DNA from: Naegleria lovaniensis
Lineage: Eukaryota > Heterolobosea > Eutetramitea > Acrasida > Naegleriidae
Direction: 5' to 3'
Assembly: GCF_003324165.1 (NCBI RefSeq)
Contig: NW_025407898.1
Location: 1 to 49,706 of the forward strand
DNA: 49,706 nucleotides
Shown here: positions 1,339-43,400 of the stretch, one piece after another
Numbering within the stretch: position 1 is the stretch's first letter
Layout: every line of letters begins with the position of its first letter
The notes under the pieces: generated by a model
Seen by the model: the letters and a program-made list of their open reading frames with translations, nothing else
What the model was told of the DNA's origin: nothing
Database searches by the model: none
Position numbers and translations under genes: made by a program

Positions 1339-2560
1339 ATGAAATCATCAAACCAGTCTGAATCCCCACAAAGAAGTCCACACAGAAGCCCACCTCATCA
1401 TCAAGGCAGCCCACATTCACCTGGCCGTCGTGATGATAGATATGAAGAGAGAAGATACGACGAACGCCGTGATGATAGGTACGATAGCAGAAGATCCTAT
1501 GATGATCGTCGTGAGAGAAGATATGAAGGCGGCGGCGGTAGAAGATATGATGACGAGCCTCGTGGAGGAAGATATGAAGGTGGAGGTAGAAGATATGACG
1601 ATAGAAGAGAAAGAGAAGATGATTTGTAAGTTGTTGTTTTTGTAGAGCATGTGTTATGACATATCATCATGTACACCACCAAAATCTGCGAAACCTGGCA
1701 CTCCACAGATTGCAAGCCGAAAAGTCCAAAGCTACATCCCTCTTTGTGGGTAGTTTGGATCATAACATTACTGAGAATGACTTGCGCGATACCTTCTCCA
1801 AGTTCGGTGTTGTTGAAAGCGTCAAACTCGGAGTTACAAAGCAAGGACGCCCTCTAGGTTATGCTTTTGTTGCTTTCTCCAACAGAGATGATTGCGAGAA
1901 GGCTTACAACGCTGTCAAGGACGGTGAAGTTGGAGGTCAAAACCACAAATGGGCCGTTGACTATGATGTTGGTAAGGAAAAGAAAATTCAATTAGGTATT
2001 CCACCAGCAGGACCAAGAAGAAGATATGGTGGTTCCTCAAGAGGCGGCGGAAGAAGATATGACGATGATCGTTATGGAGGTGGCTACAGAAGAGATCAAG
2101 GTAGCAGATATCATCCATACAGCAGAAGATCTCCACCATACAGAGGTGATAGAGGTGACAGAGGTGATAGACCATCTCCTCATGGTGGCTATCCAAGATA
2201 TGGAAGCCCAAGAAGATCTCCAATGTATGATAGACCTAGAAGAGACCGTAAGTTATTGTGTTGACTATGCTTGTGAGGCATTATTTTGAATTAACCATTT
2301 GTCATGCACACCCTTATTGGGTTAATCGGACAATTTCGCCCACCCATTACGAATTCATGCATGTTTCTGAAATGATGCCGCTCCAACCTGATTGTATCAC
2401 CGTGGTAATCGGTTGTGACCCTACCATGATCTGTGGACGACTTTTTTGGACAATGTGAACATTTCCCCACAATCTTGGATGAACAAAATGAATTCCTTGC
2501 ATGAACTTTTCACTCCATTGTCACAACACTGCAGGTGGAAGTCCAAGAGGCAATTATTAG
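1339..2560 (+). CDS. SR-type RNA-binding protein with one RRM (Tra2-like layout)
   Basis: Three exons fit: 1339-1625, 1709-2247 and 2535-2560. The introns are 83 and 287 bp, and the product is 283 residues. Residues 1-95 are rich in RS/SP, DDRY and RGG-like repeats. Residues about 103-185 form an RRM with RNP2 LFVGSL and RNP1 GYAFVAF. A second R/G/Y/S-rich tail follows. The tiny last exon encodes only the final few residues (GSPRGNY) and the stop. An RRM flanked by two arginine-rich arms resembles Tra2 and related splicing regulators, which act in the nucleus on pre-mRNA. The first intron has an alternative in-frame AG at 1645, which would leave an implausible 20-bp intron, so 1708 is preferred. 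Without the second intron the frame ends at KLLC, so the last exon rests on splice logic. The RNA target cannot be told from sequence. Confidence 0.82.
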
Positions 2561-3012
2561 ACATTCATTCCAAATATACCACAGAGACTTAAATTCTCAA
2601 CAGCAAGCTAGTTAGAGAAATGTCTGAGAGAATATTGAAATAAAACAGATGTAGACTAACAAGAGAGAAGAATAAGAGAAGAACACATATTTTGCGTGAA
2701 GTGTTGAACAATTCCAAAGAATATCAACATGATCTTGATCGAGATTTTGATTGCGAACAACAATCAAATAGAACATCTTTATCATATCGAACGTCTTAGA
2801 CCGAGTTGATTTGTGAACATGACCATATTGACATGAAATTTAGAATTTTTTAAGGCATGTCAATACGCGTTGATTCGAATCGAGAACAGTAATACTTGAT
2901 ATTGCTACAATCGTCATACAGAATGTCATTTTAATTCTGGGATGTCATGAACAGCATGATACAACAAGGAATTAAAATGATCATTTGGGCATGTCGATTC
3001 ACAATATTGAGC
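2561..3012. other. Intergenic region, nothing recognised
   Basis: AT-rich sequence with many in-frame stops on both strands. It contains the 3' end of the SR/RRM gene and several GAACA-type short repeats. I see no gene or structured element. Confidence 0.5.
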
Positions 3013-3566
3013 ATGAACGCTTCTCGAAGGTGCCTTATCATTGGCCATTCTTGCATTAAGGCAGCTAGCTCTGTTAAGGTAAGTACACTTCTTCATTCCA
3101 ACACAGTCATGTACCTGTGACCGCTCGCTGTGTTCAACAAATAAACAACACGCTAATTAATTCGCTATTCACGCATGAATTGTTTTGTCACAAATGAGCA
3201 TGAACAACCTCTTGGAGGAATATGGAGAATTCAACGGGATTTTTTAAAATAATTGAGCGGACTGGTATCAAGGTTTACAACAAAAATTCGCGAAACCACA
3301 CCCAAAACGTTTTTGGCCTTGATCAAGCTGGTGCCATCATCAACATTTCAAAAAAAAATCAACGAACGAGTGCTTGGGGTGAGGTAAGCATATTATTGGT
3401 GACCTTTGACCTAATGGTTCACTTGCTGCAACAACGACTCTTTTTGTAGATCAGCATTCTCTTTTGTGAACCAGATCATCATATTGTGTCATCTTGCGAC
3501 AGCATCATCAAATTCTGTACAAACTCCTTCACGTGTGGTATTTTGACAAGCCAATATTATTGTTGA
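3013..3566 (+). CDS. Doubtful small three-exon gene, function unknown
   Basis: Exons 3013-3078, 3228-3383 and 3450-3566 would give 112 residues, all joined in phase 0. Both donors are good (GTAAGT at 3079, GTAAGC at 3384). The last acceptor, after a T-run ending TTTTTGTAG, is also good. The middle acceptor (ATATGGAG) is weak, with no pyrimidine tract. The product is rich in basic residues, Ser and Cys and matches no family I recognise. It may instead be spliced 5' leader sequence of the pyruvate carboxylase gene that begins at 3676. The support is splice-site quality plus three open segments ending in a stop, which is modest. Confidence 0.25.
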
Positions 3567-3591
3567 GATTATATTGTATCACTGCACGACG

Positions 3592-3663
3592 GTAAGTATT
3601 TTCATTTTAATACCCGACTCTGAGCAAAATATTTGAAAATTCTTTTTCCTCCAACGGTTGCAG
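3592..3663 (+). other. Probable 5'-UTR intron of pyruvate carboxylase
   Basis: GTAAGT at 3592 and a T-rich acceptor ending TTGCAG at 3663 define a 72-bp intron just upstream of the ATG at 3676. There is no coding across it, so it would lie in the 5' leader. Confidence 0.5.
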
Positions 3664-3675
3664 CTATTCAATACA

Positions 3676-6600
3676 ATGAAAAAGCTTTGTATTCAACAAG
3701 CACAACGTCACTCTGCAAGCAAAAGCAGCCAGAGTAGCACTAAATCTGCTGCTGCACAGATCCTTGCTCAGCACAAGGTGAAAAAGAGTCATTCCCTTGC
3801 TTCGTATCAGGACTCTCTCACTAACACATCAAAGGCCAATTTTAGTTCTTCCAAATTCAGCTTGAGAGAATTTGAAAAGTTACTTGTGGCAAACAGAGGT
3901 GAAATTGCAACAAGAATTTTGAGAACTGGTCACGAAATGGGTATCAGAACTGTTTCAATCTATGCCAAACAGGATTCTTCCTCTATGCATCGTTATAAAG
4001 CAGATGGTAAGTCACTTGTTTTAGAAATTACTGGTTTTTGATACAATGACATTTGTATTGGAATATTGCATTTCTGTGTCTACATTCATCAATTTTCATT
4101 CATTCTACCGTTTGAACCAATCGCTACTCCATTCAATGGTCACTTTGATTAGAGAGTTATGTGATCGCAAAGGACAGAACTGAACCATTAGGTCCTGTGG
4201 ACGCCTATCTTTGCATTCCTGAGATTGTCAAGATTGCAAAGGATAATGGTGTTGATGCCATTCACCCTGGTTATGGTTTCTTGTCAGGTATGTGTTTGAT
4301 TGAATTGTTGAATGAATCTCAAATTTTGATTGTAAAATGATCAAACAATTTTGATCACTTTTGGTTTGCTCGGAATTTATAGAGAGAGCCGATTTTGCAA
4401 GAGCTTGCAAGGAGAGTGGAATTACTTTTATTGGACCAGTAAGTTTTCAATTTCATCAACGTTTTAATCTCAACTTTTCGAAATATTGTCAATTACTTGC
4501 ATTACTGACCTAATCATTTATCATACAGACTGATGATGTCGTAGAGGCACTCGGAGATAAAACCACTGCTAGAAAACTGGCTCAACAAATTGGTATTCCT
4601 GTTGTTCCAGGTACTGAAAGTGTAAGTTGTGAATCTTTAATTGTCATCATTGAGTTCTGATTTGGGATGATAAAAATTGACAAAACTTAATCGACTAGGC
4701 CGTGACAAGCATTTCCGAAGCCAAGAAATTCTGTGCAGACATCAACTTCCCTGTCATTCTCAAAGCAGCCCATGGAGGAGGTGGTAGAGGAATGCGTATC
4801 GTTCGTCGTATGGATGATCTTGAAGAAGCTTTCCAAAGAGCATCTTCCGAAGCTTTGAATGCATTCGGAAGTTCAGCAGTTTTCATTGAAAAGTATGTGG
4901 AGAATCCTCGTCACATTGAAGTACAAGTATTGGCTGATAAGTATGGAAATGTGGTTCACTTGTATGAAAGAGATTGTTCCGTTCAAAGAAGACATCAGGT
5001 ATGTGAAAAAGTTGAAATTTGTGTACATGTTGTTATGAACATATTGTTGCTTACTTTCATGGATTGACTCTACCTTAATTTAACAGAAAGTTGTTGAGAT
5101 TGCTCCAGCTCCACATTTAGATCCTCAAGTCAGACAAAAAATCCTCAACGATGCCACTCGTTTGGCACGTCATGTGAAATATGTCAATGCTGGTACTTTT
5201 GAATTTCTAGTAGACTCCAATGGTAAAGATTATTACTTTATCGAAGTCAATCCAAGACTTCAAGTCGAACATACAGTCACTGAGGAAATTACTGGCATTG
5301 ACATTGTTCGTAGTCAAATTCTCATTGCAGAAGGAAAGAGTCTTGAAGAAATTGGTCTCAAACAAGAGCTCATTCACGTGAGAGGAGCTGCTATTCAATG
5401 TCGTGTCACTACTGAAGATCCTTTGAATGGTTTCCAACCCGATACTGGTGTCATTGAAGCATTCAGAACCGGAGAAGGAATGGGTATTCGTTTGGATATT
5501 GGTTCAGGATATGTTGGCTCAAAGATTTCACCATTCTATGATTCTTTACTCGTTAAGGTTATTGGTAAAGGTCTCACCCATGAAGAAGCAAGCAACAAAT
5601 TGAGAAGAGCTTTGGCAGAATTTAGAATTCGTGGAGTGAAACATAACATTCCATTTTTACAAAAAGTATTGTCACACGAAAAGTTCTTGCATGGATATGT
5701 TGACACTTCATTCATTGATACCACTCCAGAATTGTTTCAATTCTCATCGAGTGGAAACCGAGCTCAGAAAGTTCTTGCATTCCTCGGAGAAACAGTGGTC
5801 AATGGGCCAACAACTCCATTGGCTACCAATTTGGAACCTTCTCGAAGAGATCCAATTATCCCTGAAACACCAAAAACTGCACTTCCAAAGGGATGGAAAC
5901 AAATTTTGGACGAACAAGGTCCTGAGGCATTTGCTAAGGCCATTCGCGAGAGCAAACCTTTGTTGATTACTGACACAACGATGCGTGACGCTCACCAATC
6001 ATTGTTGGCCACTCGTGTCAGAACCAAAGATTTATTAGCAATTGCACCTTACACTGCACATGCCATGTCCAAGTGTCTCTCATTGGAAATGGGAGGAGGT
6101 GCCACATTCGATGTCTGTTTGAATTTCCTTAGAGAATGTCCATTTGACAGATTGGCAAGATTAAGAGAAGCCATTCCTAACATTCCATTCCAAATGTTGT
6201 TCCGTGGCAGTAATGCTGTGGGATACACCGCTTACCCAGACAATGTTGTTTACAAGTATTGTAAAGAGACTGTCAAGTATGGAATGGACATTTTTAGAAT
6301 TTTCGACTCGTTGAATTATTTACCAAACAGTATGTACACTTGTGAACTTGTTGAATGACGAACTATTTTAATTATTATTTAATTCATTATTATTTATTTA
6401 CTGATCACATATGTTATTTGTGAATCGTTCAACACTATTTGTTAAAATTACAAAATATTTTCTCAAATCAGTGGAATTGGGTATTGATGCTGTTGGTAAT
6501 GCTGGAGGAGTCATTGAAGCTGCCATCTCGTACACTGGCGACGTGAGTGATCCAAAAAAGACCAAATACAATCTCGAATATTATCTCAAACTTGCTCGAG

Positions 6601-14968: not shown

Positions 14969-15139
14969 ATGTCTACGTACTATGGCCGAGGTGGTTTCAT
15001 GATTATAATTTTCATCACGTTGACATTATGGTCATTGGTTTGCAAACCAAATACGAACACTGCCAACTGCCATGATCTACTCTCCAACCTCCATTACCAC
15101 CAACCAATCACTACCTTCGCTTTTCGTACAACCAAATGA
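14969..15139 (+). other. Short frame with a signal peptide just before the receptor kinase
   Basis: The ATG at 14969 opens MSTYYGRGG, followed by a hydrophobic core (MIIIFITLTLWSLVC) that looks like a cleavable signal peptide. This frame ends at 15139. The kinase ectodomain is read in another frame, from 15072 or slightly upstream. A one-base frame change between about 15024 and 15100 would join the two, giving the ectodomain the signal it needs. No intron with matching phase was found. Confidence 0.5.
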
Positions 15140-18100
15140 TACTCCATCACTACACCGGATCGAGCATAATTTTTCAATATTTAATGATGCACGGAATAAT
15201 TCTCAAAATTTTACAAATTGCATGAACATAGAGACTCCCTGTCGGTCCATTGGCGAGGCTTTGAACGCCATTATTTATTTATATGAAAATGATTTAATTG
15301 AACGACTCGCTGCTCGTATCATCTTGTTAAGAGATGTTTCGGGAAGTTTAGTCTATTCCTATCAACAATGTCATAATTTCGATATCTACAGCAAGAACAT
15401 TATATTTGAAGAGGTAGTAATATCTTCTTTAAATGACACTGAAACAATTTCAATAGATTGTTTTCATGCTATTTTTATAATAGGAACATCTGGAGTTACA
15501 AATGGATTTAGAAAATTAACATTTTCACACATCCACATGAAAAGAATGAGGTTTTATTGGAATGAAAACCCTCTACAGCAAGTGTCATTTCAACATGTGA
15601 CGTTAGTTGATAGTAGATTTGAAGAAGAGTATATTTTTATGCCCGATATCATAAAGAAAGCACTGATTATTGAAGCTAGTACCATTCAAAAATCTAGTAT
15701 CCAGTTACGAAATAATTTCTCCTTAGAAATAGCAAACTCTACCATGATGATGGCAAATATTTCTATTGTTTTTGGAGCCAATATAGTTATTTCTTCGTGC
15801 CACATTTCAAATTTTGAATTTAAAGTGCTCACCAAAGACGTATTTCTATCCTCACCACCTGCAAAGATTCAGAATTATGGATTCATTGTTGAGAATAGTT
15901 ATATTGAAAATTCTAACTTTAGATTATATGGTTTTAACGAAATCAAGTTTAAAAACACACATCTCTATGCAACAAATTCTATATATCAATTATTTTCATT
16001 TTATAGCATGTTCTCCAACGTTGTTGCTCGATCAGGAAGACTACACATGTGGCTGGACAGAGTTAATGACGTCTCAATGTCAAATTGTAATTTTGATTCG
16101 TTGAGTGCGATCAATAGTGGCTCCCCATTGTTGAAAATTTCCTCCTGCTCGTCACTGACTCTTATTGGCATTATTAGCTCTAATAATATGGCCCCTCTTA
16201 TAAGTGTTTCAACGGGTCAAGTGGTATATATTAACCACTTTACAGCATATAACAACCAAGATGGACCGTGCTTGAAAGCTGAATTGGGTCAAATAATTGG
16301 AGGCACTCTCTTTCGGATTAACGATTTTAATTTTACGAACAACAAGTGCTCTTCGAATGGTTGTGCCATCTATGTGGAGGCTGATGAAATACAAATGGAT
16401 AATGGTCAATTGATGGGAAATCAGGGGAAAAACGGCGGTGCGTTGTTTGTTAGGAGCAAAGAACTACGCTCTATTATAATCAATTTCTTTAACAATGTTG
16501 CATTGTCGAAAGGAGGAGCCGTATTCGTTGATTCTCCTACAGTATCATTTGTGGCTTGCAGATGTGACGGTAATATGGCATACTTCAGCGGAGGGTGTGT
16601 TTATTCTCAACAACCAATTCCACGAACAGAGTTATATATTTTTTTCAATAACAATGTTGCAAAATCGTATGGAAATAATGTTGGAACAGAAATACAAGTA
16701 ACAAAATATCAGATGAAAGTACATTATGGCCAATTCAAGGTGATCACATTTAAAAGCAATTATACCAGTGTTCCTGAAATATTTCTTTATCCAGGACAAG
16801 AACTTCCCTCTATAGACCTTGAAATTTGGGACGTTAGCAATACAAAGATTTTGTTTTTGGAGTCACCTTTAAGGTTGAAACTTAATGATACCTCCCAAGG
16901 TTTTTCCATTTACAATCAAAATAATTCCAACACTCTTTCATTAGAGTCACTACAAGTAACAATCAATAATGCGAGTCAACAAGTTCTAAATACGAACATC
17001 TTCATTGATGATCACACTAGTATAAGCATTCCAATTAACATTTTACCATGTCCTGAAAATAAGACACTCGAAAAGACTCTCAACGGATTTGTTTGCATGG
17101 ATCGTCCACACATTCCCTATGAAATTGTCGTTCCAACAGTTTCTATATTGACATTAATATTAGCTGGCATAATTATTATTGGAACATATGGTATTACTCG
17201 AATTGTGAACTCGATAGCTTCCAGGCTGAGAACGTTAAAGGAAAAAGAGCAGGCTGAGAAAAGAATGGAAACTAAACTTATTGAAAAGAGAGTGGTTTTA
17301 ATGAGCCACAATGAAGACCATGAAATTCACACAGAATATCATACAATGGAAAACGCACCATTGTTGATCAATAGCACCAGCGATGGCGGGTCTTCGAATT
17401 CAAAACCAAAAACAACTCCACGATATACCAATTGGATTATCTCAATCAATGAAATTGAAATCATTAAGCGGATTGCTGAGGGAGGAAATGGTACAGTCTA
17501 TTTAGCAAGCTGGAACGGAAACAAGGTTGCTCTCAAGTCACTGAAAAGTACGGGTCTTGCAGGCGACGAAGGAAATGGAGATTTATCAGAAGATGATGAG
17601 TTTGAAAAAGAAGCTGCAGTATTGGGAAGTATGCGTCATCCGAATATTGTTCAATTTTTTGGAGTGATTCTGGCAGGAAAAAACAAGTACATGGTTGTCG
17701 AATATTTAGAAAAGGGAAGCTTGGATAAATTGATCCATGCCTCTAAAACAAAAGTTGAACCATTGGATATGTACAGAAAAATTGATATATTACTTGGAGT
17801 TGCAAAAGGAATGCATTATTTACATTCATTGAAACCGAAAGGAATAATTCATCGTGATTTAAAACCAGCGAATATTTTATTGGGTAAGTTGCGAAATGCT
17901 CTTCGAATTATATGTTGTGTGAGATTTATTGGAACGTCCATGATTTTGCCATACATAGATAATAATTTCACAGCCAAGATTTGTGATTTTGGTCTAAGCA
18001 AAGCATGGAGTGATAGTTGCACGAATTCTGTCACCACAAATATTGGAACCTTATTTTATATGGCAAATGTAAGTTAGTGTAATGAAGGTCTATGGTACTG

Positions 18101-20451: not shown

Positions 20452-23400
20452 ATGTTCAAGAGCACATCAGCAGATGCCAGCAAGAACATTTGGCAAGAGA
20501 TCATAACACCATCAATCTCACAGTCATCTTCTGCTCCAAATTGTGTCGTCGAAAATTTAATAGCAAACGATCCCAAAGAACCCGAAGACAAAGATCTTCA
20601 TGTAGTGCCAATTCCACTCACACAATTCACTCTTTCACCACAACATTCGGAAGATTGTATTTTTAAAGGAAAACTCGCACCAGGAGTTTATAAATTATGT
20701 TTGGAGAGATTGATCAACGGTGATGAAGAAGGATCGAACCTTGAATTAATGGTTGATGCGGGCGATGCTGCACCAAGTAGTTTACACATCGTTCAAATGT
20801 CAAAGAGGCAGGCAACATGGTTGTCTTCGGAAGTTCAATTGTTCAACATGAATGGAGATGTTCAACGGGTAAGTAACAAATTGCCATTCAGATTTGATGT
20901 CATCATCACAATAACGACACTGGAAATCGTAACATGAATATATTCATGATGGTTCAAAATATTATTTCAAATTCATTTCCAATTTGGCCAAATTTTTATG
21001 TGCTCAGGATGACTTTATCCGTGTTGTTGTCAAAGTGAAAGCAACCACTCTAGTGACCTCGTGTACCTTCAAATTTAAACTGTTTGTCAAGAAGGTCAAA
21101 TTATTCGAAGAATCTGACATTCAATTGTCATTTAACGACAAGAAGAAAATTCAAATTCCGAATGTGAGTCCTGGAATTTACGAAGTCATCATTTCTCCTG
21201 CAGCTCTCACAACGCGCGTAGCTCCACTTCACGTTAAAGTATGTGCTTTCATCAAGAACGCAAAACGAAAATCATTCTTCCATAATCAAGTGGCAAAAGG
21301 AGTGGTACAAACCGATGGATGGATTTCTGATCGATTTATTGTGTATAACAATGTTGAACAACAGGAGGGAAATAGTGCAACTATTGATGTAAAATTGGTG
21401 TCACCAGAACCAAAGAGATCATCTGTTGCTGGATCGCCAGGAGCCAAGAAAGGATCCTCGCCAAATCTGTTAAATTCTGCACCAATGGTGTATTCCATTA
21501 CTGTTTTTCGTATTAGCACTGCAACTCGTAAGTACCAATGCTCGTTATATTCATCATTTTCATCAACCTTCTACATTGGTGACGAATTCGTTTTCACAGC
21601 AAGTACGGCTTCCATTTCACAAACTGAACTTCACTCTTTGTGTGGCCACTTGTTGACAAGAATTTACTATTCTCAATACATGAAAAGAAATGTCAGAGAG
21701 TTGGATTGTGTCATTAAACAATGTGAATACTATTGCAACGTGTTGCAACCAAGGTGTTCAGAAGAGCAATTATTCTATTTTCAACGAATTAAGGAAATTG
21801 CCATCATGAGAAAACAATATGTGAGAGAAGAAATTGAAAGTGAACGATCAGTGGGAATCACTCTTGCCAATTCGTCATTCCAACAAGAATTGGAGGAAAA
21901 GAAGCAGTTTAATGCTCACATTTACAATGCTCTTCATTCCTTTTCTCAATTGTCCACTCAACCCATTCACACTTTGTTACATGACCAGGTATTGGAGCAA
22001 CCATACGAACTCATTGTTGTGGAAGAGAAATTCCATGCAGGAAAGAAATGCGGCCCATTGTCCAATTTACTTAAACTATTATATGAAACAATTAAGAAGG
22101 TCAGAGAGGGAATTGAAAATCAACAACATGTAGACGTATCAAAGAACGCTCTTCTCATCCAGAAAATGAGATGGCAAAAAATTGTGGACTCTGACGATGA
22201 AGAAAACTGGAATTCTCGACTTGATCCAAACCAAGATGAAATGTTTTTCTTACAAGAACAAACGGAGAGTATTTTAAAAGCTTCCGAAGATGTGAATTCT
22301 GACAACAAGCAAGACAACGCTAGAGATGGTGAACATGTAGAAAGCAAGCGTAGTATTAATTTAGGTTTGAATGCATTGATGGGAATTGCATTGTTCACAC
22401 ACAATGACATTGTGCTCGCTCCGCAAGAGCCAAATTATTTATTTGAAAAAGTTTCAAGTGAGCACTTCCAAACCATCTACAAGCTGGCACAATTCTTAAT
22501 CGTTCAAGGTTTGAAGCATGTCAAGAAGAGTGAAATCATTCAACAAGCTCTCTCCAATGCAATCATAACCCACCAAATTGATCGATTGAATTCCATTACT
22601 CAAGAATTTAACAAATATATTTCTGAGGATGAAATTAAAAGAGTGGACCAAATAATTGATGCGATTCGATCTGAAAATGTAAAGGGATTTGGATTCTTGC
22701 TGAATCAACAAGAGTTGACTGCATGGAATGCATCCATGATGTCCTTCCAACTCACACAATTCAACTATGATCATCTAGTCCGCTCAGCTAAGCATGAAGG
22801 CTCTCACATTTTTGAGATTCAAGTGGACACCAATGGTTTTGACACGATGCGATCATTCTTCCAAAACTATAACGATGACAATTCCGCTGAATGTTCCGCT
22901 GGAGTCATTTCATTTATGGGTGACACTCACAGTGGAAAGTCAATGCTGATTAAGGAGGTTATTTATTCAGAATCAAAATTGGGAAAAAACAATCCAGTAC
23001 CTAAAGAAGCTGATGAATCAAGTTCCAGTCATTCTCCTACATCAGCGAATGTCACAGGATTTGCATGCAAAAATCGAACAAATCTTGAAACCATGCTCTT
23101 GTTGGACATGGAAGGAAGCAATGGAGGAGAAAAATTGCCGGAAGAGGAAGCGAATCAACCAAAGTTCAATAATGTAGAAGAATTAGAAGAATTTATGAAA
23201 CGACGAAGACTTTCTGCAAAAGAACACCTGTCACGACTGGCTTACACATGCTCTGATGTTTTTGTGTACGTTGCTGCTCTTGACATTGCAAACAATGCAG
23301 CAAAACAGCATTTGTTGGAATGTGTTGCTGAAGAAGCTCCAAAAGGTGTGCGTGATATTTTGGAGCCATCTCTTTGTCTAGTGTTCAACAAGTGCAGACA

Positions 23401-24541
23401 AGTCTATGACTCTGTGGAAGATTCAACTCGTATATTTTTTGAAAATCATGATCCACAACGGACATTGTTAAAATTCTATAAGAAAGTGACCGTAGTAACC
23501 ATTCCTGATAAGTATGCAAGCCCAACCTATTTTGAGAAGTCACAAACGAAAGGTATTCGAATGAGTGGAGAGAAATTATTCAAGAAACAAGTTGTCACGT
23601 TCACCTCCACCATACTCGACATGCTTTTTGAACAAAAACAACGAAAAAAGGAGCATGGAGCTTTGTTGAAATTTAACTCGTTTAGCGCATTTTTTGGATG
23701 CTGTGTAGATCGTTTGAATCATATAGAGCCCTTCATGCTTTCCTCTTTGATTACGCAAGTCTTGATTGATTCCCAAGATTCTGAACTGTACACTATTCAC
23801 AAGTTCTTTTCCAAAATTTATTTATTTTCTCCATTGAATAGAGAAAATTTTGTAACAGCTGTGAAAAAAGCTCTGACACTTTTACCATTAGTGTTTTTCA
23901 GAGATTTATATTCCAAAAATTTAGTTAGTACTATTGGGTTTGAGAATGTGATGAAAAGAAGAGATGAGTATTTGAACAAGTTAATAGATCAAGCCAAAAG
24001 GTTCCTTCAAATGGTTGACAAATCTAAACCATGTGATTATGTGTTTGGGGTGCATGGAAACAAACATTGTTGCAAGACAAAGAATACACATGGAGACTGT
24101 CATGTATGTGAAAAATCGGAACCGATGACTGTCAAAGGGTTATTCGAGTTCAAGGAATTGAATGAGCGTGAATTGGTAGCAATAGTGGAAAGTAATTTCA
24201 CAACATTAATGCACTTCTATGATACACAAAAGCCAACATCGTCAGAATTTGAGAAGATTATATATCGGTGTCAACATTTTGTAGTATTTACAACAGTTTC
24301 ATGGTTAAATGAGAAGAAGTATTGTAACGAACAGTTGTGCTGGTCCACAAAAGTAGAATGTCCAATTTGCTTACAATTTCCCATTGGCGGAATGAAAGAA
24401 TTATCTTGTCAGCATCACAATTGTCAATCATGCTTCAAGTTGCAGCAACTGACAACAAAGTTTGATAATGAGAATATTTTATTCTCTGAGGAAACACAAG
24501 TCAAGTTGAGCTGTATTGGATGCACTTTAAACAGACAGTAA
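20452..24541 (+). CDS. Large GTPase-like protein with C-terminal RING-like zinc module
   Basis: Two exons, 20452-20868 and 21008-24541, give 1316 residues. The first 300 or so residues look like two beta-sandwich domains (IPLTQFTLSP, GKLAPGVYKLCLERL, then PNVSPGIYEVIISPAAL). A long helical part follows. Near residue 775 a P-loop, GDTHSGKS, is followed about 60 residues on by LLLDMEGSNG, a G3-type DxxG, and by a possible G4 at VFNKC near 930. This order resembles large GTPases of the GBP/atlastin/VLIG kind, though G4 lacks the usual aspartate. A Cys/His cluster (KHCCKTKNTHGDCHVCEK) lies near 1150. The C-terminus has CPICLQF, SCQHHNCQSC and SCIGCTLNR, a RING-like zinc ligand pattern. The combination suggests a GTP-controlled ubiquitin ligase or scaffold, which is inference. 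There is no membrane span. The ATG at 20452 is the first in this frame. Confidence 0.75.
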
Positions 24542-25128: not shown

Positions 25129-28100
25129 ATGACAGCAGCAAGTAGATTTCTCGCTACATGCTGCGAAAGAGGCCTGGCTCGTTTTGTTGGCTTCCATCGT
25201 GCATGCAGCGGTTTGTTTCTGACCATCATGATACTAACACTGATGATCGTACATGATCCATTTGTGAATGCACAAACGAATTGTCCTCACTTGCAAGCTG
25301 GGCTGACATCATTTTCGTCTCTTCCCAAGTGGAACTTGGCTGGGTCAGATATTGTCATCTCTTCCAAGGTCAAGATGGATCAATCTCCTCAAGTAATTTT
25401 ACGCTCCATTACTATTGAGAATGGTGGTGAATTAATATTTGACAATACCGTTTTGAATGTGGATGTTGAGTTTATTGTAGTGAAAGCTGGTGGTAAATTC
25501 ATTGCTGGCTCTGAAACATGCCCAATTACTAACAAGATTATTGTGACCTTCTTTGGAAATCGAACCACTGCCAATGTGATTGGATCTGATCCCCATGATA
25601 ACACTGCTGCAGGTTACAAGGGTCTGGCATGCCTGAGCGGTTCGTATTTGCAATTGTATGGGGATGTGAATAGACCTACTTGGACTAATCTGGGAGAAAC
25701 AGCTGTCAAAGGAAGTTCAACCATCAAGGTTATTGATAACACTCAATGGAAAGTTGGAGATGAGATTGTGGTTACCAGTACTGGTAAGTTGAACAGTCAG
25801 CTTATTTCATTCTTGAACTTCATTCTTTCGATATAACGTGAACATGTTGTGAAAAAACATTGTACAGATTATGGTGAATTGATTGACAGTCGTAAGGCCT
25901 CCGGTCCTTCTTGGATGTATGTCTATGGCAATTATTTTCCAGATCAAAACGAAGTTCGAACGATCGCACAAGTAGTCAACTCGAAAACCTTTGTCTTGGA
26001 TCGTCCATTAAATTTCACTCATTGGGGTAAAGACCATGCACGTGCAGAGGTTGGAATTTTGAACAGAAACATCGTTTTGCAAGGAGATGCCTCATCTGTG
26101 AATTCACAATTTGGTGGACATTGGATGATTCGAGTGGTGGAACAAGCTGAAATCCAAGGAGTAGAAGTGACACGTATGGGTCAGAAGGGTTTGTTAGGAA
26201 GATATGCTGTTCACTTTCATGTGGTAAGTTGGGAGTAGATAATTTCATCTTGTGTCAATACATACTCGACGGAAATATAATGCACTTATTACACATACTC
26301 ACAGCTTGGAGAACAGTCGTTCTTGAAGCCAAAAAGATTCTTCATTAAGGAATCATCGATTCATCATAGTTTTCAACGATGTGTCGTTGTACATGATTCC
26401 AATGGATTACTCATTCACGACAATGTTTGTTTTGATTCCTTTGGTCATCAATATTTCCTTGAAGATGGTAGTGAAATGGGCAATGAATTTATTCATAATT
26501 TAGGAATTCGAGCCAAACCAGTGGCAAATGGCGATCCCATGCAAATTATTCCATCCGATCATGATGTCTCTATTTTTTGGATTACCAATGCGAACAATAC
26601 CTGGATTAGGGTAAGTGTTACTTGTTGTTTTTGAACCATGTAGATAGATTACAAGATAACAGAATGCTGCAGTTGGAGGAAAATTTCCTTTCTGGTTTAC
26701 CATGCCTCTGAATGTTGGTGGATTATCAAGTGCAAAATATGGAGTGAATAATATCTATGTGAGACCTCGAAATCAACCTCTTGGAGCATTTAAAAACAAT
26801 GTAGCTCACTCGTCAAATGGTAACGGAGTGCATGTTGATGACATGTTGACACCAACTGGAACATTTGAAGAAGCTTCTTTTCTTCCAAGACTTGGTCCAT
26901 ACAATGGTCCATCGATCGTTGTGGAAGCTGTTTTTGAAGGAATTATTGCATACAAAAATCGTGGTTATGGTATGTTGGTTATACTGAAAATATTTTGAGT
27001 TGACGAGTGTTGTTCATTGAAAAATAGGTATTTGGGCTCGTGGCGGTCCCTTACTTTTTAGAAATTTAATATTAACAGACAATCGAATTCAAATGATTAC
27101 GTAAGTGCTTCCTGCTTGTATTGATATTTATTAATTGTCCAACATTATTACACGTTCTTGTAGCCCTCCTGGTCCATCCGTTGTTGTGGACAGTTTATTC
27201 ATTGGTGAGAGCGACAATGTTGGAGATAGTTCTTTCAGACCATCCGTCGATCTCGGTGGTAGATCAAGACCTGATCCCAATGCAGCCTCCAAATATCCTG
27301 TGAAAGGTTTTGAAACCTATGACAATGGAGGTCCACAATTGTTGAAGAACATTGTGTTCAAGAATTTCATGCCAGACCAATTTCGTCAAGCAGCAGCATT
27401 GGGACAAATGTCTGATGCCCCATTCAAACATCAAAGTAAGTGTTTGTATTTAAAACCATAATTCACATCGTACTGTTTTATTTTCAATCCCTGAGGAACA
27501 GCCCTAAATAGATACCTTAATTTAACATTTGAAAATAGTAATCGAGTCTATGTTTCTGAAAGATTCCTTGATGGCAACAAAGGTCTCTGCGTTCTTGATA
27601 TTGATGGGTCAACAACTGGTTTCACTCCTGGAGGATGGCTTGTGGCCAATGATTCTCTCATGGCTCACTCCAAATGTATTAAAAGAAACGATTGGAAAGG
27701 ATACAATTGTCCAATAACTCTCGAAGGTTATGGTCAATTATGGGTTCAAAACGTTGGAGGTAACTTTGAAACATCCTCTCCATATGGTTCAGATCCAAGT
27801 CTCAATAATCCAGGAGCCAAAGTAGCACGGATGATCGTTCACGATCTCTCTCGTCGTGTGAATAGTTCTGTCATTGGTGGAGTATTGGGAGGCACGTTTA
27901 CCATGCAGAGTAATGTCATTTTGAGGAATTTTTATGCCATTCGTTGGATTTTAAACATTCCTTCACCTCCGATTTTGAAGTTTTTACTGACCTCCTCTGC
28001 AAATAATGATTGGGTAGTAGTGTCGGTTCAGTATCCGAGAAGTGCCGAATTGAATGTCTATTTCAATAGCCCGCAAGGAAAGAAAGTGTTGACCCGTGTG

Positions 28101-29581
28101 AATTCTCTGGGGGCCCTTGTACAAGATCCAATGCATTATTATTATGACTCGAGCGGTGAGCACTTGTATCTGTATTTGAGAAATAGAGCTGGACGAAGTG
28201 CTTTCAGTGAACGATGGGGTTTCTCAGCCTTCAGCAATGATGGATTTCATGTGGTAGTGAACGCTTCCTGTCCCAATGATCGTTGTCAAGTCGATAATCA
28301 TAATTTGCCAGCACATTCTCAACATTTTGTAAAATTGTATCATAAGGAAGAACGTTATGCAGGATATTTAAAACCATTAGTGAAGAATGGAGCCAACAGA
28401 GGAAACGGAGTAGTTTTTGCCACCTTATTGTCCAATAAGAGAACACTCGATGTAGCCGTTCATCACGATTTAACTTTGACAGCTACAAAAATGGAAGTTG
28501 GTGTTGGTGATCCGGTCACTGATCAGGAAGATCGAATCATTACTCCACCCACTAATGTGAAATTTACTCCGTATTCAGTGTCAAGATTTTCATGGGAATT
28601 ATCTGTGGATGATATGGTCGCATTGTTGAAAGGTCGTTTATTTGTCAAACTTTCGACCACGACACACCCGAATGGACATTTGAAAGGTCATCTGTATTGC
28701 AACATGGGCCGTAATTCTACTAACAATCTATACATGTGTTCTCTTCCAGATCCAATTCCCAAAGCTCAACCTTGCGATGCGGCACCATTGGATGCCATTT
28801 CCTTCTATGACGAGTTTGACACTGTAGACGCTAGAACCAAATGGTTTTTATTGTACTACAACAGCACGGCCGATGTTAAGGAAGGAATTTATAGTATTGC
28901 TTCAAGAAATTACACGAGTAATCCTATATGTGGAGCCTCCTCTATTTATGCTGGAATTCGAAATGGTGGTGTCATTATTGGCAAAACCTATTCACCTTCA
29001 ACACTCAATTTTGTAGACCTTGGTGTGTACAAATATTTTGAATTTTTCGTTCGATCATTGACACCAGGTGAATTGAAGTTGAATGTGCATTTCACAGAAG
29101 TCGAGAATGGTATTGCTAGAGACATTCCAAGTTTATCAGTCGACACTAAATACATTCAATACTATACTATTGATGACAGTCGTGTTACACGAGTGAGAAT
29201 TCCAGTTTCTGATTTGGCTTTCACAAACAAGACTTCCCTTAATGTCATTCAAAGAGTTGTGTTTACCATTAGCAATGGCGTTTTCAAGGAATTCTTGATA
29301 ATTTAAGATTTGTTAAGGAAGCTGCAGATCCTGTAGGAGTTTATGATGGAGTGACTCAATCTGACATTGTTGGATTGAAAGGAGTTCCAGATCCTGATAT
29401 TGATCCTCTCTCTGTTAGAGGTGAGATTGTCATACCCATTGTCGAACCCTCACAAAGCATTGTAAAACCAAAACCAAGCAATAGCACTCCCAAAAGAACA
29501 ACCACCGTTAGCTCAGGGGCGAAGGGAAAAGCTCTTCATTGGTGTATATGTTTGGTATTGTTGCTTGTACTATTGTGTTAA
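25129..29581 (+). CDS. G8/CEMIP-like beta-helix surface protein with CHRD domain and GPI-type tail
   Basis: Seven exons (25129-25783, 25868-26223, 26305-26610, 26663-26969, 27028-27100, 27164-27435, 27502-29581) would give about 1349 residues if one frame break is ignored. A signal peptide (LFLTIMILTLMIV) precedes a G8 domain (residues about 50-205: WNLAGSDIVISSKVKMD, ENGGELIFDN). The segments GRYAVHFHVLGE, SSIHHSFQRCVVVHD and NVCFDSFGHQYFLEDG match the beta-helix of CEMIP/TMEM2 and fibrocystin-like proteins; some animal relatives act on hyaluronan. A CHRD domain follows (GVVFATLLSNKRTLDV to HPNGHLKGHLYC), then a carbohydrate-binding-like sandwich. The Ser/Pro/Thr-rich tail ends in a hydrophobic stretch (CICLVLLLVLL). 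Near 29288 the frame shifts by one base: without the shift the protein ends at 29306, while the next frame gives the expected ILDNLRFVKEAADP continuation. Hyaluronan is not expected in an amoeba, so the ligand is unknown. Confidence 0.85.
29286..29291 (+). other. Frame break in the G8 gene
   Basis: The frame reads NGVFKEFLII then stop. The neighbouring frame reads ILDNLRFVKEAADP and runs to the GPI-type tail. The shift is one base at the AAGGA stretch. It is an assembly error or a true truncation that removes the anchor. Confidence 0.65.
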
Positions 29582-36790: not shown

Positions 36791-39700
36791 CTATTGAAAA
36801 ATTGTTAGAATGAGTAAAAAGAACATGGTAATGAAACAAGTAATACCAATTAAAGGCGTCCTTAAAGTAGATGCAACATCGGAACTAGCAGTAATAATTC
36901 TTGGTTCCACTTGAACGACAAACAAACTGCTGGAAACACCGGTGTCTGTTACTGCTCTCACATTTCGAGAAGGATTCAACACGACGTTCAGTCCAGTGTT
37001 TGATTGAACAAAACACGAGCTAGAAGTATTCGAATACTTGTATGGGAACATGGAAGGTATAAGTCGGAATGAAAAGCCATACAACGCATTCACGCCAGGA
37101 AACGGATACAAAATAGTTTCAACTTCAGAATTGGCTGCTCGATTCGTAATGATTGGTTTCCAAACATCCATTGTAGCAGCATTGAATTGAGAACATCCAT
37201 ATTCATGGTTTTCGGGATCATACGAAATGGTGGCTCTGAATTCTTTAAAGCAACACAAATAAGCCTCGTTCACAACGAGACGGTTATTCGGTCCGAGAGT
37301 GGATGAAGTTGTTTGAACTTGAGCAAAGACTCTCTCGCCCGATTTGAATGTTGTTTTGGGCGACCAATCTCCCGAGGCCAGGTACATTGTGGTTTTAAGG
37401 GTGAAATTCTTTTCAGAAGGACCAATAACTAGCATGTAATCGATTTTGAGTGGTATGAACATAGTGGCCTCATCCAACACTCCCTCTCGCTTTAACACTG
37501 CTCGGAAAAAGGTGAGAGCTCTGAAATCACTCACTTTTGTATTGGAGTGCATCTGGATTTGATAAAACCAACTTGGTGCATTTCGATACCAAAAAGTACT
37601 CTCTCTGACTTGATAGATGTAATTAGTATTGGTTGTGTTATGGAAAGAGAATGAGTGGAGAGTGGCATTTGTTGTTTTAAGGACCATTTTGACATTTAAC
37701 ACACCAGTTGAGGAATTGGTTGAAAACTCCTGAGGATACAAATTCACAGAGTAGGGCAACAAGGTGGAAAACTCGTCAAATGAAGAAAAAACGGTGGTTG
37801 TTAGTTTGATAAAGACTATTTGTGAAGTGGTGAATTGGTACGCTCTACAAAATCCGCCATTGTTCAAACCCATTTCATCCAAGTAATAGAGAGATAACGG
37901 AATGGTTAACTTGATCACATCCCCCAACATTTCCTTTTTCACCAATGAGTTCTCAATTAATTGGTCCAAAGTAAATATTGGTGAAGAGTAGGCACGACGA
38001 CATGGTTCCACCATGTCTATTACGGTCAAGTTCATTCGTTGACCACCTTGAACGGAGCAAGAATGAGTGTCAAAAGAAGAATCTCCTAACAATGCTAAAT
38101 GAATGAATTCCACATTGGGATCCAAAGAAAAGTTGTATGAAAATTGAATTCCATCTTCGACGACGTGTGAGGAAATTTGAGGATTGGGTGCTCCAATCGA
38201 ATTGGAATCCCAACATGTTTCTTCACATTGAACACCACGAAATCCATCTTGACACATACAGCTATCTGGACCCACACAAGCACCTCTACCACTACACACA
38301 GATGTTGTATCATTTTGTAAATAGCCCCAACAAACAGCATGCTCACACTGACTTCCGCTATATCCTGAACAGCACAAGCACACGTCCCTGGAGGTACATG
38401 CTCCTCTGGACGAGCATGCATTTGTTCCGCTAAGTCCAAAACAAATGGGCTCGCATCCACTTTTATCACTTTTTAAGGCAAATCCAGGTGAACATGTAGG
38501 GTTCAATCTTCTGATTCTGTTACTACCTGTAAACAATAACGATCCTTGCGGAGTGAAGGTAAAAGCCCAAGGAGAGCCCATGAGAGCATCAGTTGCAAGT
38601 CCTCCATCACCAGAAAATCCAGGCTGACCATTACCTGTGAAACGAAAGAGCCGTTCATGTAGGTTAACTACAAGTTGATTAAGTCAAACTTCAACTTACC
38701 AGCAACAGTTTTGATGATACCTCCTGTGGTAATCTTTCTTATAGCACCAGTAACTCCAAAAAACACTTCTCCTGTGAAAGGAGAAACTACCACATAGGTA
38801 GGATGAGAAATTTGAGCAGATGTGGCTGGTCCATTGTCACCAGTATGTCCTTTGATACCATTACCTGCAATGGTTGAGATGTAACCGTTTCTATCAATTT
38901 TTCGAATTCTATTATTAACACTGTCAGCAATGAATAGCTCACCAACATGATAAAACGCATGCAACGGGTCGGAGAAAAGAGCATCACGAGCTAATCCTCC
39001 ATCACCTCCGTATCCTTGCACGCCGGTACCTGGTTTTGAAAAAAGATTAAGAAAGTCAAGATATATTTCACACAATCTCTTACCTGCAATTGTTTCAATA
39101 ATACCATCCGTTCTAATTCGTCTAATTCGTTGATTACCTGCATCTGCTACATAGGCCTCTCCTGACGCAAAGGTATGAAGTCCCCATGGTGTAGTGAACG
39201 TGGCGCTTATGGCAGGAATGTTGTCACCAGTATAGCCTTGTGCACCAGTTCCTGTAGAATGAATTCAATATATTACATTGTCCAGATCATATCAATAGTA
39301 ACAATTCCACTTACCAGCAATTGTTGAAATGATACCAGAGGCATTGATTTTTCTAACTCTGTGGTTGAGACAATCTGAAAAATAAAGCTCTTGAGTCTCT
39401 TCAACATAGTACGATGTTCTTGCATTTGCTATTTGAGCAAAGGTTGCAGGAATCCCGTCTCCATAAAACCCTTGCACACCGTTGCCTGCATGTACAAAAC
39501 CATGATCATGATAGCATAGAGTTAATATTTGTGATAATATCACTTACCTGCAATGGTTGTAACGATTCCATTTGGAGCTATTTTTCTGATTCTTTGGTTT
39601 CCTAGATCCACCACATAGATGTCTCCAGATTGTGAAACGGAAACACCACGAGGGTCCCAAAAAGAGGTACTTATGGCCAAATTTCCGTCGCCGTTAAACC

Positions 39701-39815
39701 CATCAGCACCTGTACCAGCAATGGTTTCAACAGTGTAGTATACTTCTTGGCCGGATACAAAACTAATTTGAACTAGCCAACTTGTGGCGAGTAAGAATAA
39801 CAAGAGTTCTTTCAT
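36791..39815 (-). CDS. Secreted NHL-repeat and EGF protein with C-terminal anchor
   Basis: Five exons on the minus strand (39815-39548, 39485-39315, 39251-39084, 39029-38700, 38634-36791) give 926 residues. A signal peptide (LLLFLLATSWLVQISFVSG) precedes about six NHL-type propeller blades, each opening with a GTG/GNG-x-Q-G-x-x-GDG or GTGADGFNGDG motif and carrying VDLGNQRIRKI-like strands. Every intron is phase 1 and lies just before a GxG motif, so the blade exons are symmetrical modules. After the propeller come two EGF-like units (CSSRGACTSRDVCLCCSGYSG, CSGRGACVGPDSCMCQDGF), then a long domain with no recognised family. A hydrophobic C-terminus (LIGITCFITMFFLLILTIF) suggests a GPI signal or a tail anchor. 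NHL propellers bind proteins, RNA or sugars; an extracellular one probably binds a ligand or matrix. Introns are 49-65 bp, among the shortest here. Confidence 0.87.
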
Positions 39816-40448
39816 ACGATTAATAACTTATTTTGTTTTTTTTGTCTGTGTCCACAGATGAGATGAACTAGGGAGAACAATTTTATGAGAAATTCACTAC
39901 CTGGTGCCCAAAATATCAGTTGTCGAGGGAGCTACTTTCCAAAAGTAGGACCTGTCACTTGTTATCTTTTAAAACAAGTAAGTGCCTGAAGCTTGGTAAT
40001 AGGTATTTTGTCTGAATAACATCACACTGGAAAGATAATTTTAGGTACCAAAAACCGTAAAGTCTTCCATACATTCACCTCAAATCGCTTGATGACATTC
40101 ACAACAATTTAATAATGGCAACTTTCACAAACTACCAAACGCTCAGTTTCATTCGAATAGTTACCAACGTTTGATTATGATGTAATATTTTTGTTTATCA
40201 TTAGGGCATGAAGAACACGAGACGGTACACAATGAGACGAGGTGACAGATAATGGCATATAAACATACTTTTTTTGGGACTGTCTGATCTCAATAACTAC
40301 TTATCAAAAAAATGTGGATGGGTTTATTTGTTGGGTTGGTAGTTGTGGTTTTGGTTTGGGTTGTTGTCTGGGTTTTGGGTAGGTTTGGTCCATTAAACAA
40401 AATAGGTATGTATGCCATTATGTGTAATCCCGTTTCAGAGGAGAACAA
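39816..40448. other. Intergenic region with a T/G-rich tract
   Basis: About 630 bp without a gene. At 40320-40388 a T/G-rich stretch (GGTTTATTTGTTGGGTTGG...GGGTTTTGGGTAGG) resembles decayed telomeric repeat. The rest is AT-rich and includes the start region of the NHL gene. Confidence 0.55.
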
Positions 40449-43400
40449 TCAAGGTTTAGGCGCTCCTGTACTCCCTGCGTTGCTTGGAGTGCTTTGAGGT
40501 GATTGCGGCACTGAAGAGGTTCCTCCTCCTATTGACGGAGTTGTTGGCAAGCTCGTTGTGGGTTGCAATTCTGTAGTAGATCCTCCTGTGGTTAAGCTCT
40601 TTTGTTTCTTGAAATATTTAACACATCCCCAAATACCACCACCTCCAGCTAGTAAGGCAATGACAGAGACAATAAGACCAGCAATTGGAACAATAATAGC
40701 AACCAAATCAACTACTCCTAAACCTGAGTTAGGAACGACCTTAAATTCAAAAACAGATTCTGCTTCCATATTTCCCTTATCCACAACATAGAACTTGAAT
40801 TTGTTTGTGCTTTGTTCTGAAGCTTTTCCTTTGAGAATATAATTCATTTCATCAAATTTTACCCAACTTGGAAGTGCTTGACCTGTTTCTAAGGCTGCCT
40901 TATAAACCAAGCTCTCACCATCTGGATCTGTGAAAATATCTTTTCCTACTGGAATACTGAATTCCTTATCAACCTGTACTGACTGATCAAGCATCTTACT
41001 TTTAACGTAGGGAGATCTATTGTAAATAATAGTAGAAGGAACGCTTGCTGTTTGAGCGAAACCATTGGAAACGCTGATTTGATAGGATGGTGTCTGTTCT
41101 GCGGTACCAGTATGTACAAATTTCACTATACCTTCCTTCACTTGTAATTGAGAAAAGTTTGTGACCACACTCACTGCAGGGCTATGCACCTCAAATCTTC
41201 CATACCTTAAATTACTTATGGTGAAATATATTTGAGCGTCACTGGCAGATGAATCCGTTGCTAAAAGGTCATTTGAAGTAACTGTTGTGGTTTGTCCTTG
41301 TGATACCAGAATCTTATTGTTAATAATGACAGGGATGGACTTGTCACAAAATTGACCAGAATATCCGGCGTTACAAGTACAGGTGTCAACGTCGGTGCAT
41401 AACCCTCTTCCGTTACAAACTAATGATGTGACATTTTGTGGAATTCCATTACATTTGGGCAATTCACAATATTTACCACCCCAGTTTGTGTCACATCGAC
41501 AAATGTCAACTCCATCACATGACCCATGTCCATTACAAACACTTAATGATCCTTGGATATACCCATTACATTTTGGCATGTCACAATACTGTCCACCATA
41601 ATTGGAATTGCAACTACAGGTATTGACATTATCACATGATCCGTGTCCATTACAAACAAGTGCAGTCATGTTCTGTAAAACTCCATTACATTTAGGAACC
41701 TGACAATATTGTCCACCCCAATTTGTGTCACATCTACATAAATCAACATCATCACACGAGCCATGACCATTGCAAACATTCGCTGCGCCTTGAAGAATGC
41801 CGTTACATTTTGGAATTACACAATTCGATCCTCCATAATTTGCCGTGCACTGACAAACGTTATTGTCAACACAGGTTCCTTTTGAAGGTCCTCCGCATGC
41901 ATTGGAACCGTAATTTCCGAAGCATGTCACTTTAAAATCAATCACAGCAGGCTGAGGGTCCGTGTACAAATCTCCTTCACCAACTCCATCTCTAATGTAG
42001 AAATGAAATGATGGAGCTGATAAGCTTGTAGAAACAAATCGAACTTGTGAAGCATTAATATGATGTTGAGTAAATGAAGTAATTGAAATTCCTGGTGCTG
42101 TGACCATCTCAAAGTATCCATGTTGCAGGTTACTCACAGTATAAGTGATTGTGTCGTTTTCAGAGTCAACAGATAACATATTTAGATTAGACACAATGAC
42201 TGATTGTTTTGCCTTGCTCTCAAGTTGGTTAACGACATTCCATGGTCGTGTGTTCAATGAATATTGCCTTGAATACACTCCCCAGTCATCTCCATCTTGT
42301 CCCATACTGGTCCATAATGCAAGAAAGTTATTATTCCTTGTCTGAACTATGTGATTCACATACTGAGTATCGGCAATGTAAGTATTCATTTTATAAATAG
42401 GTCCTAATGACGTTCCTGAAGTGTCATATCTTCTAAAAAAGCATCCCAATCCATTTCCATCATCTCCAGTCCATGCCACAATAATTTCTCCTGTGCCGTA
42501 AGTGAAAGAAAGTACGGCAAGACCTTCATGACTATATGAAGTTGAATAGGTCGCTATGGTAAAGTCATGTACTAAAATGTTGCCATTGGCATCAAAGATT
42601 TTTCCAATGACTCTGGGACCTCCTTCAGTATCCAAACTCACCCAAACAATGATAAATCCTCCATTCTTTAAGAAACTAATGGCAGGTTTTGATTGCTCGT
42701 TTTGTTGTTGTAGGTTGACTAGTATTTCAGTTCCAAGAGGATTGCCATTAGAATCGAATCGTTGAGCAGCAATACCATAAGAGCTTCCGTCATTCGTGTC
42801 ACTTTGCCATGCTATTACAAAGTTATTATTGAATGGACTTACTGTAACTGACGGACCACAGATACATGGTTTACTTCCAAAGTTTTTAGTATTCACTTTG
42901 AAAGCTGAACCCGAAGTGTTGCCATTGGAATCGAAACGTTGAGCATAAACTTCAAATACGTTTGAGGTTATTCTAAACCAACTGATGACAAAACCTCCAC
43001 CACTCATGGCAGCAACATGAGGAACTTCTCCCACATTGGAATTCACTAGAGTTTCAGAAGAGGATCCAACTTTATCTCCGTTTAAATCGAATCTTTGATA
43101 GTACACATAAGTACTACCAGCAGCATTGTCATATGGTTGACCGTTCAACGAATAACTAGTCCATGTAATCACAAAACCTCCGTTTGTAAGCTTTGCAATC
43201 TCTGGAAATGCTTGATACGATGTTGTTATAGTGTTCACAAGTTGTGGTGTAGAAACATCTCCATTAGGATAATATTTTCGAAGGTAGATATCCCATCCGC
43301 TACCAGTGATTTGTTCAAAACTCATCCAAACAATCACAGTCATGCCGTTGTCTAATTGAACACCTCTAGCTTCAGTCTGCTTGTTGGTAGTATAGGTATT

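Follow-up and report, generated by a model that had tools for sequence, protein, structure and literature searches.

RNF112 (ZNF179, neurolastin) is presented in PMC12012479 as a vertebrate GTPase of the dynamin superfamily whose C3HC4 RING is N-terminal and which has an amphipathic helix as well as a predicted transmembrane helix. The same paper reports its GTPase and ligase activities to be unrelated and the arginine-finger position to differ among species, and states that RNF112 remodels membranes when it is given a membrane anchor. In TRIM23 (ARD1), a RING, B-boxes and a coiled coil are followed by a C-terminal ARF GTPase, and ARF GTPases have recurrently been linked with ubiquitin-related domains, according to PMC8358228; PMC5794181 reports connected GTPase and ligase activities for TRIM23 and a role in antiviral autophagy.

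We analyzed a gene on a 49,706-nucleotide stretch of Naegleria lovaniensis DNA (contig NW_025407898.1, hereafter the window), whose product resembles RNF112 in that a single chain bears both a RING pattern and G motifs of the large-GTPase type. The order of RNF112, with an N-terminal RING, an atlastin-like G domain, a middle domain and a membrane helix, is not that of the window protein, in which the RING is C-terminal, about 690 additional residues precede the G domain and a membrane anchor is not seen; nor does an RNF112 chain occur among the PDB matches listed for the G fragment. With TRIM23 it shares the presence of a RING ligase and a GTPase, both putative here, in a single chain, but the order of parts and the type of GTPase differ, and there is no ARF match among the Pfam results. 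The P-loop, the DxEG-type G3 motif and the hydrophobic strand after it are shared with the GBP (PF02263) and RHD3/SEY1 (PF05879) families, whose G4 motif, RD, is however not that of the window protein; a scan of the G fragment gave no match to either family, and the window gene is absent from the best candidates (E-value ≤1) of own-genome searches with the two profiles. Since at least one tested feature of each of these families is lacking, we do not class the window protein with the RNF112, TRIM23, GBP or SEY1 family. What sets it apart from the animal fusions is the order of its parts, its N-terminal module and the fact that no membrane anchor is visible. The preliminary description had called a GTPase joined to a ligase unusual, which holds in part, RNF112 and TRIM23 being described fusions of this kind. 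We found no description of the present fusion among the articles listed in our searches, a set with most subscription journals outside its scope.

By inspection of open reading frames, the gene runs on the plus strand from an ATG at 20452 to a stop codon ending at 24541, as originally delimited, and upstream of 20416 a stop codon closes its frame. It contains two GT-AG introns, and its features are:

20452 to 20868, plus strand: exon 1, residues 1-139, N-terminal module (open reading frame)
20869 to 21007, plus strand: intron 1, 139 nt, GT...AG, phase 0, placed identically in both paralogues
21008 to 21527, plus strand: exon 2, N-terminal module, continued
21528 to 21599, plus strand: intron 2, 72 nt, GTAAGT...TTTTCACAG (ends ACAG), phase 1, stop-free
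21600 to 22732, plus strand: exon 3, remainder of the N-terminal module, to about residue 690, just past ELTAW (paralogue matches and alignment)
22919 to 22942, plus strand: G1/P-loop GDTHSGKS, residues 753-760
23105 to 23116, plus strand: G3 motif DMEG, residues 815-818, after LLL
23387 to 23398, plus strand: candidate G4 motif NKCR, residues 909-912 (VFNKC at 907)
24032 to 24109, plus strand: Cys/His cluster, C1124-C1149, nine Cys or His in 26 residues
24359 to 24523, plus strand: C3HC4 pattern, C1233-x2-C-x12-C-x1-H-x2-C-x2-C-x26-C-x2-C1287

The reading frame passes through intron 2, since this is stop-free and its length is divisible by three, and the codon score of the read-through (0.179) lies inside the exon range, which counts against the intron call. 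Codon usage cannot separate intron 2 from exon, and the case for an intron therefore rests on the splice signals and the paralogues: in all three family genes a Pro codon is completed across the junction, in phase 1, and in both paralogues (on contigs C32 and C9) reading through the corresponding second intron meets a stop codon. Because intron 2 agrees in place and phase with introns of the two paralogues, the predicted window protein is 1292 residues long and not 1316. The earlier numbering, which reached 1316, fits a model in which intron 1 alone was removed and the 24 codons of intron 2 were kept; residue numbers beyond 312 shift by 24 once intron 2 is taken out.

Between 22874 and 24538 the coding frame has no stop codons, compared to 39, 44, 29, 21 and 29 in the remaining five. 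For exons 1 and 2, the N-terminal part of exon 3 and each of the three later parts (G, middle and C-terminal), a codon-usage score derived from six further open reading frames of the window takes positive values (0.11 to 0.28) in the coding frame and negative ones in every other frame. All of the motifs previously pointed out (GDTHSGKS, DMEG, CPIC, CQHHNCQSC, CIGC) lie within one open exon. As this open exon holds the G and C-terminal parts together with the last stretch of the conserved module, the simplest reading of the sequence is that the gene encodes one polypeptide.

To place the parts of the protein within its own genome, we searched the 30.69-Mb, 97-contig assembly in six frames and scored the best candidates, so that all copy numbers are lower bounds. 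The N-terminal module was found in at least three genes, namely the window gene and two paralogues, whose exons are:

contig C32: exons 1201-1641, 1798-2320 and 2472-4765
contig C9: exons 651-1199, 1313-1892 and 1995-4045

Over the approximately 690 residues of the module, the window protein is 34% and 30% identical to the two paralogues, whose genes each contain two introns that coincide in place and phase (0 and 1) with those of the window gene. Directly after ELTAW, at about residue 690, the window protein and its paralogues part ways: the latter continue into a domain of their own of about 210 residues (45% identity to each other), and a pattern scan found neither a P-loop nor a RING pattern in either of them. 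The shared front half and the different tails are most simply accounted for by a tail swap within the family, in either direction. One of the two paralogue tails was scanned against Pfam, without a match, and a profile search against PDB gave nothing below an E-value of 0.15; by eye, the end of the tail recalls a RUN domain. Neither the G region nor the C-terminal region had a further copy among the best own-genome candidates (a match on contig C5, E-value 0.25, was taken as chance). A weak match to the N-terminal module (E-value 0.05) was also seen on contig C38 (141272-141454, minus strand), within an open frame of 4056 residues.

The N-terminal β-sandwich domains of the preliminary description were not confirmed. 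The sole Pfam match in this part of the window protein is DUF3447, below the cut-off (E-value 0.024); across the three genes, the Pfam scan of the module gave STN1_2 in one (E-value 0.0015) and Por_Secre_tail in one (E-value 0.05), and the best match of a module profile against PDB had an E-value of 0.36. The idea of two repeated β-domains within the module was rejected at hhalign probabilities of 0.3 to 1.3%.

Searches with the window protein returned nothing above the Pfam cut-off and no match in PDB sequences below an E-value of 0.36. As single-protein queries, which detect close relatives only, against collections of non-eukaryotic sequences, the G and C-terminal part found no relatives in viral_contigs and the 1177-residue translation of exons 2 and 3 found none in genome_contigs. 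The sole PADLOC match, mad8 (E-value 0.014), was judged to be chance.

In the central domain, a P-loop by itself occurs in 840 of 20000 shuffles of the protein and a P-loop together with DxxG in 78 of 20000. The stricter pattern observed, in which GxxxxGK[ST] and DxxG both follow hydrophobic strands, occurs in none of 20000, this pattern having been written after seeing the sequence. GTPases have [NT]KxD as their G4 motif, or RD in the GBP/RHD3 family. The candidate NKCR fits neither form, alignment to the GBP/SEY1 family does not place it onto the family RD, and a long insert follows G3. The G fragment had no significant match in Pfam (best AAA_22, E-value 0.18) or in PDB sequences (best chain, E-value 0.96); a septin-like assignment was dropped, there being no septin among the matches listed from either. 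A single-sequence AlphaFold prediction of the G region (22847-23650), made without an alignment, had a pLDDT of 33.3 and carries no usable information.

We compared the domain to a profile built from five GBP and two SEY1 G domains, of which three and one, respectively, came from its own genome. It scored 18.5 bits, with a match that spans the P-loop, passes G3 and extends through CSDVFVY. No free shuffle (best 8.3), no shuffle keeping the P-loop (best 12.3) and no shuffle keeping P-loop and DMEG (best 10.7) reached this score in 1000 each, but 41 of 1000 did when each motif retained the six residues before it and the two after, which argues that the match derives mainly from the motif blocks. 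On a profile of GBP domains alone, the score was 9.8 bits, reached by 0, 0, 0 and 79 of 1000 free, P-loop, both-motif and block shuffles, with a thin margin over the best shuffle keeping P-loop and DMEG (9.7); on a profile of SEY1 domains alone it was 5.8 bits, reached by 3, 4, 5 and 275 of 1000, which is no separation. The one control, an unrelated GTPase from the same genome that we take to be of the Era type and that was itself a weak match in the own-genome family search, scored above the window domain on each profile in hmmsearch (22.3, 17.2 and 8.3 bits on joint, GBP and SEY1). The hhalign probabilities follow suit, at 92% for Era and 83% for the window domain on the joint profile, 86% and 28% on GBP, and 68% and 14% on SEY1. 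These comparisons support a P-loop GTPase-like domain but no particular subfamily, as Era outscores it on the same GBP+SEY1 profile. Of the original proposal, a single polypeptide with G1, G3 and a complete C3HC4 pattern is borne out; the kind of GTPase, tentatively GBP- or septin-like, is not, resting as it does on motif blocks.

The fourth P-loop residue is His in the window protein and Arg in GBP1 (GLYRTGKS). In Xenopus RNF112, hardly any GTP was turned over once the arginine finger had been exchanged for His or Glu, as stated in section 6 of PMC12012479, and we read that arginine finger as corresponding to the same P-loop position as the His of the window protein. From the His at the arginine-finger position and the degenerate G4, by analogy to the RNF112 mutants, GTP hydrolysis by the window protein would be expected to be slow.

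The genome also contains separate genes of GBP type. One on contig C37 (about 1420-2530), with exons assembled by eye, matches nearly the whole G domain of human GBP1 (E-value 1.1e-48), which is close for a seeming protist. Another, on contig C16 (minus strand), is an open frame of 909 residues that includes a G domain of GBP type and, as judged by eye, hydrophobic segments; a third, on contig C34 (minus strand), has a divergent GBP-type domain above the PF02263 cut-off.

RING domains follow the consensus C-x2-C-x(9-39)-C-x(1-3)-H-x(2-3)-C-x2-C-x(4-48)-C-x2-C, which supplies eight zinc ligands, with CPxC at Cys7-Cys8 and an Arg right after Cys8. The C3HC4 pattern of the window protein is complete at residues 1233-1287 and arose in none of 20000 shuffles of the protein. 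It has a long Cys6-Cys7 loop (x26), its Cys7-Cys8 segment is CIGC, lacking the intervening Pro, and no Arg directly follows Cys8; the Ile of CPIC is at what we take to be the usual E2-contact position. On a 65-residue fragment, Pfam zf-C3HC4 scored 20.6 bits (E-value 4e-4), short of the curated cut-off of 21, and on a 176-residue fragment 17.5 bits; with the 1177-residue translation as query, no RING family appeared in Pfam at an E-value ≤1. The first five of the seven Pfam matches listed for the 65-residue fragment are RING families. The PDB matches of the RING part are all weak (E-values 0.1 to 8.3); 18 of 25 are RING proteins by name, among them the best ones (TRIM30, RNF123 and TRAF6, E-values 0.1-0.12), and the other seven are HERC2 ZZ (two), KCMF1 (two), GU4 protein (two) and dystrophin (one). 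The density of the upstream cluster C1124-C1149, reached in 2 of 2000 shuffles, would be compatible with a possible second zinc site. For the C-terminal region (24017-24538), AlphaFold run on the single sequence, without an alignment, gave a pLDDT of 34.9 and a model that carries no usable information.

Elsewhere in the window, open frames at 25129-29306 (plus strand) contain a G8 domain and have CEMIP_X-like and CHRD-like matches below the cut-off; they are perhaps one secreted or surface protein. Those at 36791-43676 (minus strand) match EGF, cadherin-like and Ig-like domains. In a frame of 1001 residues at 15072-18077 (plus strand), a kinase match halts at profile position 166 of 263, where the frame ends, and the gene may therefore continue beyond an intron.

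Our preferred explanation, which we put forward tentatively and at somewhat less than an even chance, is that the window protein is a lineage-specific RING-type E3 ubiquitin ligase built on a nucleotide-binding assembly module. The N-terminal 690 or so residues would act as a targeting or scaffold module; the central P-loop domain would bind guanine nucleotide, self-associate and gather the C-terminal RINGs on a target; and the RING would recruit an E2, so that the target or the window protein itself could be ubiquitylated. Of these steps, the coupling of nucleotide to ligase is the least certain, because RNF112 combines the two activities without mutual control and in TRIM23 they are connected; the unrelated activities of RNF112 weaken the assembly switch in particular. 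In a bolder version, a protist would have joined a large-GTPase assembly switch and a RING ligase to a targeting module specific to its lineage, so that clustering driven by nucleotide, on the surface of a membrane or a microbe, triggers ubiquitylation; the protein would then match RNF112 and TRIM23 by independent origin, with its parts in reverse order. This version appears doubtful to us, and decidedly more so than the plain ligase.

The zinc fingers might instead be structural, or bind proteins or lipids, in a large-GTPase-like scaffold that has no ligase activity. This is unlikely, though far from negligible: the Pfam score of the RING below its cut-off, the long Cys6-Cys7 loop, CIGC in place of the customary CPxC, the upstream Cys/His cluster, which suggests a wider zinc-binding region, and the 7 of 25 weak PDB matches that are not RING proteins by name all speak for it, but the spacing of the ligands agrees with the RING consensus all along, and the Ile that by the E2-contact rule is expected in CPIC is present. 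We consider it rather unlikely that the protein is a RING ligase whose central part, a pseudo-enzyme similar to P-loop NTPases or a binder of another nucleotide, supplies a fold or interaction surface and nothing more. Such a role would suit the NKCR at G4, the His at the arginine-finger position, the long insert after G3 and the identity of the sole Pfam hint for the G fragment, AAA_22; against it, G1 and G3 are intact, and the DxEG motif runs into a hydrophobic strand as in GBP and SEY1. That same GBP/SEY1-style G3 and strand, together with the remodeling of membranes by anchored RNF112 and the part of TRIM23 in antiviral autophagy, could be taken to favor the original proposal that the protist uses this protein, in the manner of GBPs, in immunity or membrane trafficking. 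We regard this as improbable, since the sequence contains no clear transmembrane segment (best mean hydropathy over 19 residues, 1.33), its C-terminus, ...TLNRQ, does not have a lipidation motif by the usual rule, and the GBP and SEY1 genes of the genome are separate and far closer to the known families.

Should both domains of the window protein prove active, the joining of a GTPase to a ubiquitin ligase would have happened outside animals as well, and in another order. The family of three genes, in which one front half is followed by the G/RING tail in one case and by a different tail in the others, offers a natural comparison, which could show whether the state of the nucleotide governs the ligase.
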